55,782 bases of DNA from Clostridia bacterium (lineage in GTDB: Bacteria; Bacillota; Clostridia; Oscillospirales; Acutalibacteraceae), in contig JAFUPA010000019.1 of NCBI GenBank assembly GCA_017481575.1, positions 1 to 55,782 of the forward strand, written 5' to 3'. Below are positions 33,919 through 55,603 of this stretch, piece after piece. The notes beneath the pieces were generated by a model that ran no database searches, was not told the origin of the DNA, and saw only the letters and a list, made by a program, of their open reading frames with translations. The stretch's first letter is position 1; the number at the start of each line of letters is the position of its first letter. The translations under genes and the position numbers were made by a program.

Positions 33919-34434
33919 ATGCGAACAAAAAGAGTAGTTGTTTTGCCTTATGATGCAAAATGGAAAAGTGATTTTGAAAATATAAAAAAGGAAATTTATG
34001 CCGCAATTGGTGATTTGATTATTTCTATTGAACACGTCGGAAGTACTTCGGTAGAAGGTCTGTCTGCCAAGCCTTGCATAGATATTGACGTTGTAATCAA
34101 AGATTATTCTGTTTTTGATACTGTTGTCGGCAGGCTGTTTGCGATTGGTTATTTATATGAAGGCAACCTTGGAATAGAAGGAAGAGAAGCTTTTAAATAT
34201 TCAGATAAACCACACTTACAGACCCACCATTTATACGTTTGTCCGCAACATTCTGAAGAATTACATCGACACATCACCTTCAGAGACTTCCTCAGAAGCA
34301 ATCCCGAAGCAGTAAAAAGATATGGTGCAGTTAAAGAAAAAGCGGCACAGTTATTTCCTGACGATATAGAAAAATATATTGAATATAAATCTTCTTGCAT
34401 TGAAGAATTATACGAGATATGCGGTTTGAAATAA
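33919..34434 (+). CDS. GrpB-family (UPF0157) nucleotidyltransferase-like protein
   Basis: 171 residues. The family signature IEHVGSTSVEGLSAKPCIDI holds the G-S-T-S and the D-x-D of a nucleotidyltransferase-type active site (IDIDVVI). HHLYVCPQHSEELHRHITFRDFLR is also conserved in the family. The substrate is not known; some members are fused to dephospho-CoA kinase. The gene is AT-richer than neighbours. It sits between the rpmF terminator and the hairpin array. Confidence 0.85.
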   Translation: MRTKRVVVLPYDAKWKSDFENIKKEIYAAIGDLIISIEHVGSTSVEGLSAKPCIDIDVVIKDYSVFDTVVGRLFAIGYLYEGNLGIEGREAFKYSDKPHLQTHHLYVCPQHSEELHRHITFRDFLRSNPEAVKRYGAVKEKAAQLFPDDIEKYIEYKSSCIEELYEICGLK

Positions 34435-34468: not shown

Positions 34469-34506
34469 CCCCTGAAAGGGGAGATGGGTCGTAGACCCAG
34501 AGGGGT
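34469..34506. repeat. CCCCT/AGGGG element, copy 2
   Basis: CCCCT (34469-34473), loop GAA, AGGGG (34477-34481), AGA, TGGGTC GTA GACCCA (34485-34499), G, AGGGGT (34501-34506). Same frame as 27222-27264, but the inner hairpin has a different sequence. Confidence 0.7.
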
Positions 34507-34535
34507 TATTATAAATAGCAACGCAGTTCCACAAC

Positions 34536-34636
34536 TTTTGCCGAGTGGCAAAAATTTCACATCGGCAAAGCCGATATTTCACATTGCGAAAGCAATATTT
34601 CACACGACCGCAGGTCGTAATTCACTGCCGGAGGCA
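34536..34636. repeat. array of five different hairpins with ATTTCAC spacers (array C)
   Basis: TTTTGCC GAGT GGCAAAA (34536-34553), spacer ATTTCAC, ATCGGC AAA GCCGAT (34561-34575), ATTTCAC, ATTGC GAAA GCAAT (34583-34596), ATTTCAC, ACGACC GCA GGTCGT (34604-34618), AATTCAC, TGCC GGA GGCA (34626-34636). Hairpin starts are spaced 25, 22, 21 and 22 bases. Spacers are conserved while hairpin arms differ. GGAGG in the last hairpin is the ribosome-binding site of the gene at 34642. It and the element at 34469 fill the 207-base gap. Confidence 0.85.
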
Positions 34637-34641
34637 CTACT

Positions 34642-35961
34642 ATGGCTGTAAAAATCTCATCAATAAAACCACATTCGCCTGCTTCAAGACATTTTGTCAA
34701 AGCGGGCAGTAAGCTCATTTCCGTCAACGGTCACGAAATCCGTGATGTGCTTGACTATCAGTTTTATATCGATGAGGATGTCCTCGACCTTGTAATCGAA
34801 AAGCCGAACGGCAAGCGTCGTAAGGTCAGGCTCAAAAACTGCTACGGCGAAACGGGACTTGAGTTCGAAACCTACCTTATGGACAAACAGCGCCCCTGTG
34901 CCAACAACTGCATCTTCTGCTTTATTGACCAGATGCCCAAGGGTATGCGTGAAAGCCTTTATTTCAAGGATGACGATGCACGTCTTTCCTTCCTTTTCGG
35001 CAACTATATCACACTCACAAACCTCGGTGACAAGGACATCGACCGAATTATCGAAATGCACATCAGCCCTGTGAACATTTCCGTTCACACAATGAATCCC
35101 GACCTGCGTGTAAAGATGATGGGTAACAAGCGTGCAGGCAAGGTGCTTGAATATGTCAAACGTCTTGCGGCGGCAGGTATCAAGCTCAATACACAGCTTG
35201 TACTTTGTCCGGGCTACAATGACGGCGACGAGCTGACCTATTCTCTCGAGGAATTGGGCAAGCTTTATCCCGCTGTTCAGAGTATTGCGGCTGTCCCTGT
35301 GGGACTTACGTGCCACCGTGACGGACTTGCAAACTTAAATCCTTTCACAAAAGAGCAATCTTTAGATGTAATTTTTAGAATAGATAGTTACAATTCTTCA
35401 TTTTTGTGTTATAATAATATGAATATTGCTTTTGCGGCGGATGAATTCTATCTGAATGCAGGTTTACCTCTGCCCGATGTCGAGCGTTACGGCGAATTTC
35501 CGCAGCTTGAAAACGGTGTCGGAATGTGGTCTTTGCTCAAAAAAGAGTTTGATGATGCCGTTAAAGATTTGCCCGACTCATATTCACTCGCAACCGAGCG
35601 GAAAATAACAATGGTCACGGGTGTTGCCGCCTACGGACTTATAAAGTACATTGCGGACACCGTGCAGTCAAAGGTGAAAAATCTCCACATCAATGTGGTT
35701 AAAATAGAAAATAAGCTCTTCGGTGACACAATCACCGTTGCAGGACTTCTTTGCGGTAATGATATCGCAAACGCTCTTGAGGGCAAAGACCTCTTTGACG
35801 AGGTGCTTATCCCCGCTGTTTCACTTCGCAGAGAGGGCGACCTGTTCCTTGACGATATGAGTGTTGAGGAGCTTTCAGAAAGATTAAAAGCAAAAGTTAC
35901 TCCCGTTGAAAGTGACGGATATGTTTTACTCCAAAGGATTTTAGGTGAGGAGGAAGAATAA
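34642..35961 (+). CDS. DUF512 radical-SAM-like protein
   Basis: 439 residues. An N-terminal PDZ-like domain (about 8-60) with AGSKLISVNGHEIRDVLDYQ is followed by Cys86, Cys90 and Cys93 in CANNCIFC, an iron-sulfur cluster motif of the radical-SAM pattern, and FIDQMPKGMRESLYFKDDD, the hallmark of this family. DUF512 covers the C-terminal part. The function is not established; in Firmicutes the gene is regularly next to der, which suggests a role linked to ribosome assembly or tRNA/rRNA modification. The ATG is 7 bases after GGAGG, which lies inside the last hairpin of the array. Confidence 0.88.
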   Translation: MAVKISSIKPHSPASRHFVKAGSKLISVNGHEIRDVLDYQFYIDEDVLDLVIEKPNGKRRKVRLKNCYGETGLEFETYLMDKQRPCANNCIFCFIDQMPKGMRESLYFKDDDARLSFLFGNYITLTNLGDKDIDRIIEMHISPVNISVHTMNPDLRVKMMGNKRAGKVLEYVKRLAAAGIKLNTQLVLCPGYNDGDELTYSLEELGKLYPAVQSIAAVPVGLTCHRDGLANLNPFTKEQSLDVIFRIDSYNSSFLCYNNMNIAFAADEFYLNAGLPLPDVERYGEFPQLENGVGMWSLLKKEFDDAVKDLPDSYSLATERKITMVTGVAAYGLIKYIADTVQSKVKNLHINVVKIENKLFGDTITVAGLLCGNDIANALEGKDLFDEVLIPAVSLRREGDLFLDDMSVEELSERLKAKVTPVESDGYVLLQRILGEEEE

Positions 35962-55486: not shown

Positions 55487-55603
55487 GTCGGTGTTGATAG
55501 CGAAGAGGGTCCACCCGTTCCCATACCGAACACGGTAGTTAAGCTCTTCTGTGCTGAAAATACTTGGCGGGCAGCCGCCCGGGAAGATAAGGCGATGCCG
55601 ACA
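55487..55603 (+). rRNA. rrf: 5S ribosomal RNA
   Basis: 117 bases. Ends pair as GTCGG/CCGAC. The conserved internal segments CCACCCGTTCCCATACCGAA and CACGGTAGTTAAGCTCTTC, and the loop E/helix IV region with TACTTGGCGGGCAGCCGCCC, identify 5S rRNA. It has its own promoter and terminator, with protein-coding sequence directly upstream and no 23S rRNA, so it is a stand-alone copy within this window. An antisense frame of 69 codons over it is meaningless. Confidence 0.95.

Follow-up and report, generated by a model that had tools for sequence, protein, structure and literature searches.

A run of short hairpins joined by a conserved heptamer stands directly before a DUF512 gene in the window, the 55,782-nucleotide stretch of a Clostridia bacterium genome (GTDB family Acutalibacteraceae; contig JAFUPA010000019.1) analysed here. 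The arms differ from hairpin to hairpin yet remain self-complementary, and the last stem overlaps the ribosome-binding site of the gene, which raises the question of whether the array controls this gene, encodes an RNA or is a repeat that has settled here. The array probably belongs, as a solitary and non-autonomous copy, to a family of mobile hairpin arrays, part of which is listed by Rfam as the Gut-1 RNA.

The array and its place before the DUF512 gene

Direct reading of the sequence confirmed the five unlike stems and the ATTTCAC and AATTCAC spacers of the original prediction (Table 1), placed the stem starts 25, 22, 21 and 22 bases apart, within the 21-25 bases proposed, and located the GGAGG of the DUF512 gene within the last stem. 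The array is longer to the left than first described, as three further hairpins precede h1: the mini-hairpin h0 and a CCCCT/TGGGTC pair, which may be another repeat travelling with the array. Copy L002 of the same genome has an analogous hairpin run, then a similar AT-rich stretch and an identical AGCAACGCAGTTCC; another palindromic repeat family, AAGGGAGCTGTCACGAAGTGACTGAGGGATTG, was also seen at this locus. Among the copies, h0 reads by eye AAC-GCA-GTT, GTC-GCA-GAC or GGC-GCA-GCC and is missing in L155, L160, L179 and L214. The pattern GTGAAAT-N8-24-GTGAAAT matched twice in the window, both times within the array (mean 0.02; 0 of 100 shuffles reached 2); lone ATTTCAC words are not rare, with 22 in the window against 12.15 expected. 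A CRISPR-like array is rejected on its layout, since the repeated word is the short spacer and the variable parts are palindromes. Elsewhere in the window, positions 55487-55603 of the plus strand hold a 5S rRNA.

Table 1. Features at and around the hairpin array, in window coordinates
Feature	Position	Strand	Basis or remark
GrpB-family gene 5' of the array	33919..34434	+	PF04229; rpmF (L32) further upstream, PF01783
Two extra hairpins, CCCCT-GAA-AGGGG (34469-34481) and TGGGTC-GTA-GACCCA (34485-34499)	34469..34499	+	sequence
Mini-hairpin h0, AAC-GCA-GTT	34520..34528	+	compared by eye among copies
Hairpin h1, TTTTGCC-GAGT-GGCAAAA, stem 7 bp, loop 4	34536..34553	+	sequence read, copy alignment
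Gut-1 match (Rfam RF01706), model positions 1-77 of 77	34549..34627	-	61.8 bits; gathering score 50
Spacer ATTTCAC (X'; GTGAAAT on the minus strand)	34554..34560	+	word counts
Hairpin h2, ATCGGC-AAA-GCCGAT, stem 6 bp	34561..34575	+	sequence; outside RNAalifold consensus
Second spacer ATTTCAC	34576..34582	+	word counts
Hairpin h3, ATTGC-GAAA-GCAAT, stem 5 bp	34583..34596	+	sequence, copy alignment
Third spacer ATTTCAC	34597..34603	+	word counts
Hairpin h4, ACGACC-GCA-GGTCGT, stem 6 bp	34604..34618	+	sequence, copy alignment
Spacer AATTCAC	34619..34625	+	with next bases CAGTGAATT on the minus strand, where the Gut-1 consensus starts with CAaUGAAAU
TGCC-GGA-GGCA, 4 bp, where full elements have their end palindrome (P0)	34626..34636	+	overlaps DUF512 Shine-Dalgarno
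DUF512 gene with radical-SAM and PDZ domains	34642..35961	+	PF04459, PF19238, PF17820

In the window, the GrpB gene and the array both lie between rpmF and DUF512; in the other genus loci for which rpmF was located, rpmF and DUF512 are about 320 nt or less apart in six cases and about 1.3 kb apart, with other sequence between them, in two. The original prediction included a mobile repeat that had captured translation control of the gene. The mobile repeat stands, as set out below; conserved control does not, by the original prediction's own check on orthologues, because no array was seen before any of the 16 other DUF512 orthologues of the genus (for L293, where the scan motif was not found, this covers about 205 nt upstream, taken from an earlier reading of the locus by eye), and a conserved DUF512 riboregulator is ruled out on the same count. 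Close orthologues carry GGGGGCAACACTATG at the place of the window's GGAGGCACTACTATG, so the Shine-Dalgarno sequence looks inherited, with the array joined onto it. Another palindromic repeat family (CCCTCCACCGCTGACGCGGTCCCCCTCCCTTTAGGCAAGGGAGGCTTA) stands before DUF512 in L282, L283 and L285.

As a 5' leader element, the AUUUCAC-hairpins of the plus strand might provide ribosome standby or hide the GGAGG at DUF512, and in other copies lie in a tRNA leader. Folding of positions 34530-34660 gave z -3.42 on the plus strand (reached by 2 of 200 shuffles) and z -3.75 on the minus strand (1 of 200). In the plus-strand minimum free energy (MFE) fold, some Shine-Dalgarno bases pair with the region of the start codon, which is consistent with a leader, but this is a weak alternative pairing (34627-34633 with 34640-34646), and the TGCC/GGCA stem, just 4 bp long, is absent from it. 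The same reading is favoured by the G..A loops on the sense strand (described below), by copies of the window's subfamily (type B, below) directly before tRNA-Ala or tRNA-Leu (four loci) or before an AGGAGG start region (L160), and by a TTGACA-17-TATAAT box upstream of the array in L003. However, the genes downstream of the copies are unrelated, copy L012 of the window genome lies in opposite orientation to the ATG after it, and the array-free DUF512 orthologues weigh in the same direction; we consider a leader function unlikely.

Identity, copies and folding strand of the repeat

The initial statement that no named family has such a layout fails, because the minus strand of the array scores 61.8 bits against Rfam Gut-1 (RF01706; cut-off 50), with all 77 model positions and the same hairpins and GUGAAAU words. 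The Gut-1 consensus starts with CAaUGAAAU and stops in the centre of the full module described below, so Gut-1 represents the left half of a module of about 205-230 bp. Rfam and, in the available portion of their paper, the discoverers file Gut-1 as a noncoding RNA from the human gut only (Weinberg et al. 2010, PMC2864571), and the Rfam type entry is 'Gene; sRNA'. As filed, Gut-1 is a free noncoding RNA, whereas the analysis places it as one half of a DNA module adjoining tRNAs and genes for a four-helix-bundle protein (fhb). The restriction to the human gut also fails, as six of the 23 named genomes tested were positive (controls 0 of 14), all of them from the gut of sheep, goat, water buffalo or roe deer. 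A literature search on 'Gut-1 RNA' as a term gave no match, and one on interspersed hairpin repeats gave nothing usable.

The repeat is dispersed and concentrated within the family. The window genome (2.1 Mb, 71 contigs, 72.9% complete) has 22 Gut-1 matches. In the genus, Gut-1 was found in 14 of 18 genomes at E <= 0.001, and in 10 of 18 above the gathering cut-off; the weakest of these 133 genus matches may be chance, because one of the 14 control genomes (E. coli) was also matched below the cut-off at E <= 0.001. Across the family, 48 of 120 genomes carry Gut-1 at E <= 1e-6 (controls 0 of 14). A phylum sample gave matches in 4 of 398 genomes at E <= 1e-8 (controls 0 of 14), namely the window genome and three genomes of other families with one match each; outside the family Gut-1 is rare, not absent. 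Six near-identical copies of about 290 bp with unlike visible flanks show that one subfamily has multiplied recently in the window genome. Four of the six run into contig ends, and no consistent target-site duplication, as would be expected of a MITE, was seen by eye in the uncut ones. At L164 (G016:C43), three tandem arrays with a spacing of about 290 bp stand behind a single tRNA-Leu. A pattern scan of IMG/VR found hairpins in both units in at least 9 of 120 stretches. Behind a tRNA-Ser of the window genome (L144, G000:C33) there is an array-like start with another word, AACTAAGTGTGCC, and similar starts occur in L337, L338 and L350. A second dispersed motif, TTGTTGCTATTTTGAGCTGTAAACAC, precedes terminators in L357 (2152-2183) and in L358 (reoriented; 1419-1450 and 2410-2450).

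Around the best Gut-1 matches, full modules (type A) follow the order of a tRNA ending in CCA, P0, CAA[C/T][G/T]AAAT, GTGAAAT-joined hairpins, a centre and ATTTCAC-joined hairpins. P0 is a near-perfect, terminator-like palindrome, often GAAAA...TTTTC. In the left part, a word X (GTGAAAT in the window) follows each of three or four hairpins, and the hairpins of the right part are joined by rc(X). The left arm also pairs with the distal segment in an outer helix, with a mean of 10.6 bp within arrays against 6.8 bp when arrays are crossed (0 of 1000 permutations; 32 arrays with 25 distinct words, three of them read from the other end of the element). Two type-A arrays folded alone gave z -6.9 and -6.1. 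L134 and L122 share a near-identical array with different P0 sequences, so P0 may be swappable or may in part belong to the tRNA as its terminator; some tRNAs without arrays likewise have a flush terminator behind them. Spaced AATCGTTAAA-like repeats lie to the right of the array in L134, L162 and L235.

In the window subfamily, type B, 13 homologous copies from four genomes have a common hairpin layout; the alignment contains 13 of 24 regex matches, with near-identical, partial and type-A-like rows left out. The window copy, before DUF512 and with no fhb gene, is read as an inverted half-module. Its minus strand reads TGCC-TCC-GGCA at the P0 position and then CAGTGAATT, and other type-B copies have a longer palindrome there. 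We infer that type B is P0 plus the left half in reverse orientation, and read the window's P0 as shrunk to TGCC-GGA-GGCA against the DUF512 ribosome site.

The covarying arms that had been proposed as a check were found: two-sided changes with pairing kept, in one or more of the 13 copies, are present at 11 of the 16 consensus pairs, and broken or gapped cells occur at one consensus pair only. Neither h0 nor h2 is part of the RNAalifold consensus; the arms of these two were compared manually or by script. The modular array with variable yet self-complementary arms is thus borne out. The hairpins also differ between strands. Among 155 distinct hairpins, 132 have loops of 3-4 bases, and 79 of these 132 loops are G..A on the ATTTCAC strand, vs 2 when the GTGAAAT strand is read; the closing pair is C-G in 126 hairpins and G-C in 18. 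The 33 hairpins of other word classes agree in strand (18 G..A loops vs 1). GNA and GNNA loops closed by C-G are exceptionally stable in DNA, as GNRA loops are in RNA; the ratio of 30 GNRA to 14 GNYA among the G..A tetraloops does not settle between RNA and DNA. In a fixed-stem count, the ATTTCAC strand has 23 G-U against 9 A-C cells, a weaker bias than the 91:5 of tRNA stems and 47:5 of terminators used as controls; an earlier count of 3 against 3 was biased by picking the longest Watson-Crick core. Both strands of the window array fold, and because the G..A loops and a mild G-U excess favour the ATTTCAC strand, the better-folding strand is probably the one opposite to Rfam's, which is the GTGAAAT side. 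In type A, each half has a different stable strand, so DNA would fit better than a single transcript.

These observations bear on the filed identity of Gut-1 as a free-standing small noncoding RNA, by which the window would hold an antisense sRNA gene and the copies would be its paralogues. The Rfam type and the covarying stems fit such an RNA, but the G..A loops and the G-U excess lie on the opposite strand, the consensus covers just half of a palindromic module, and near-identical modules stand behind different tRNA genes and in two genera (below). An sRNA gene is accordingly quite improbable in our judgement.

tRNA 3' ends and the four-helix-bundle protein

In the genus, 34 of 99 Gut-1 clusters have a tRNA at most 300 bp away, and 29 of the 34 are downstream of it in sense (one of 100 clusters was dropped before counting, having no locus sequence), against a chance expectation of roughly 2% as estimated from tRNA density; the other 65 lie away from tRNAs. 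In an all-against-all comparison of tRNA 3' flanks, the stretch behind CCA in L122 (tRNA-Ala, window genus) matches that in L235 (tRNA-Ser, another genus) at 99.5% identity across 215 bp, beginning with the very first base, whereas the two tRNA bodies share 76.9%. Modules behind different tRNAs are likewise similar in L163/L202 (tRNA-Gly and tRNA-Leu, 92.6%), L337/L350 (tRNA-Asn and tRNA-Leu, 90.9%), L314/L202 (tRNA-Gly and tRNA-Leu, 84.6%) and L313/L339 (tRNA-Gly and tRNA-Leu, 83.1%). These five pairs were chosen as clear cases. In the full list, inflated by tandem tRNAs and shared T-arms, just 13 of 460 alignments of at least 60 bp start within 4 bases of the CCA end (102 start within the tRNA and 345 later), so the case for flush insertion depends on the chosen pairs. 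To our knowledge, no known bacterial element inserts in such a way, directly at the 3' terminus of a tRNA gene. L357, which stands behind a tRNA (Arg by eye) and has no fhb gene, matches L358, which has fhb and no tRNA within 1500 nt upstream, at 88.6% over 228 bp starting at P0. The similarity of L163 and L202 stops, by eye, just past the last spacer word, so module and gene can part. In L114 (before 1501), L154/L107 (left) and L324 (downstream), CCGTTATSAACACTCRYACCA, which ends in ACCA and received no tRNA call, stands directly before terminator-like palindromes and is perhaps a tRNA-like landing site.

Behind several type-A arrays follow a promoter-like box, read by eye, and a gene for a protein of about 115 residues. 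This fhb protein matches PF05635 (E 5e-26) and TIGR02436 (4e-29), both four helix bundle families, as well as PDB 2rld. PF05635 includes 23S-rRNA-IVS proteins and resembles Avd of diversity-generating retroelements (PMC10053308). PF05635 has 33 matches in 14 of the 18 genus genomes. We read 30 of these 33 loci, plus 29 further family-level loci from a longer list. A sense tRNA lies at most 450 nt upstream of fhb in 19 of the 30 genus loci (one more at 472 nt; two have less than 370 nt of upstream sequence) and at most 500 nt upstream in 13 of the 29 family-level loci, giving 32 of 59 overall. By eye, an inverted hairpin array is present in 19 of the 30 genus loci (truncated in one of these), eight have other repeats with TTACTT/ATAATA words and three have neither; between tRNA and fhb at the 19 tRNA-adjoining loci stand hairpin arrays in 11 and other-type repeats in eight. 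The fhb elements of L318, L321, L309, L327, L325 and L308 stand behind tRNAs and have TTACTT-type repeats, some with a third copy of the terminator arm. Other PF05635 subfamilies (L328, L329, L333, L335, L340, L344 and L298) have short upstream direct repeats, for example GTCAGTAAGTCAGTGAGTCAGT, AGGAATTAGGAATGAGGAATTAGG or AACGCAGAACGCAG, in place of hairpins. In L168 and L185, the fhb stop and the following start codon overlap by four bases, and the sequence of other fhb loci points to a similar overlap there.

Gut-1 and fhb co-occur across the 120 family genomes: 39 have both, 9 Gut-1 only, 12 fhb only and 60 neither (Fisher p 1.2e-12), so that 9 of the 48 Gut-1 genomes are without fhb. One fhb element of the window genome (L314) falls below the Gut-1 cut-off. 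At fhb loci without a Gut-1 match, the same layout can occur with other words, namely ATGAAG, GTGATG, CGATATG, TGTAATCA and TATATCATCA, which recur within the element and are inverted in the right half. In scans of the genus for class words, GTATATCATCA occurred in 2 of 18 genomes and CGATATG in 2 of 18, one of them without hairpin character; several spacer classes can coexist in one genome. Spacer classes, assigned by hand and including one catch-all class, change 6 times on the fhb tree (minimum 5; shuffled mean 16.9; 0 of 200 as low); linkage alone may explain this joint clustering of word and protein. The window copy has no PF05635 gene, its neighbours being GrpB and DUF512, whereas many type-A elements do carry one. 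The original idea of a scaffold with a protein binding the repeated units gains a candidate partner in the four-helix-bundle protein.

A DNA or mRNA feature resembling a BIME, with palindromes that follow terminators or separate convergent genes, bind gyrase or shield mRNA ends, and are kept by selection, would be in keeping with the position behind terminators, the inverted pairs and the presence of arrays at some tRNA loci in several species. The fhb link with its matched spacer word, the varying presence among genomes and the rarity in the phylum sample (4 of 398) argue against it, and we give it as little credence as the sRNA gene; a role of this sort is compatible with a mobile origin.

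Known repeat systems and a candidate mechanism

The arrays are REP-like in being many interspersed palindromes with inverted neighbours, intergenic by eye in the loci read. As far as the available portions of the sources go, REPIN-RAYT and BIME systems (PMC3116915, PMC3733652) share the tagged, multi-copy inverted palindromes and a partner protein whose type matches the repeat. However, their partner is a Y1 transposase rather than a four-helix-bundle protein, and in contrast to them the arms here vary between copies, each element has about six hairpins, and the elements often lie at tRNA 3' ends. A relic of an ordinary REP/RAYT system (Y1 tyrosine transposase) is highly improbable: tagged palindromes, inverted doublets, several copies per genome and a Y1_Tnp match in 12 of 18 genus genomes would suit it, but a Y1/RAYT partner is rejected by the lack of Y1_Tnp in the array-rich G000, G008 and G017 (72.9, 97 and 91% complete), the neighbouring gene is fhb, and the tag is a class-variable GTGAAAT, not the GTAG or CGTC given for REPs in the available part of PMC3733652.

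A closer likeness in protein is found in the 23S rRNA IVS fhb (PF05635/TIGR02436) and in Avd of diversity-generating retroelements (PMC10053308, available portion), which belong to the same family, with the element often against a stable-RNA gene; the IVS sits inside the 23S rRNA, whereas the elements here are at tRNA 3' ends. Among the open-licence matches listed in a literature search on four-helix-bundle proteins with IVS, tRNA or repeat arrays, there was no account of the element. We know of no description of a hairpin/X array for the 23S rRNA IVS or Avd systems, nor of a function for PF05635 proteins outside diversity-generating retroelements.

If the window array is a member of a mobile family, as we prefer, a full element would consist of P0 (a possible terminator), X hairpins, a centre, rc(X) hairpins and often a promoter-like box with the fhb gene. 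Inserted with P0 flush behind the tRNA CCA, it would leave the tRNA with a terminator; P0 would stop the tRNA transcript, making the insertion harmless. The fhb protein might recognise the X-plus-hairpin unit of its own class on a single strand (ssDNA or RNA) and, once bound, assist in copying or joining, with the tRNA CCA end as the end point of this step. Half-arrays would be mobilised in trans or be leftovers; because no type-B copy was seen together with fhb, mobilisation in trans is something we infer. In the DUF512 leader, the window copy would be a mere passenger with mild effects at most, presumably tolerated because the ribosome site of the gene is left usable.

More tentatively, and with a probability that we place somewhat below even, the family may represent a new class of mobile element, in which an fhb protein and a cognate stable-loop hairpin array with a class-specific word are copied by way of single strands, perhaps reverse transcripts, and attached exactly at the mature tRNA CCA end. 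Joining could proceed by template switching of a reverse transcriptase onto tRNA 3' ends, and the perfect yet ever-changing stems could arise from snap-back copying. Were such a class real, Gut-1 would be its first described part. The results give the orphan Rfam family Gut-1 an identity and suggest a revision of its strand and type, provide PF05635 four-helix-bundle proteins with a testable candidate nucleic-acid partner, and point to insertion at the exact 3' end of tRNA genes. A 73.8 kb IMG/VR contig classed as viral (L482) holds two tandem Gut-1 modules and an fhb gene, and is a possible vehicle for the element.
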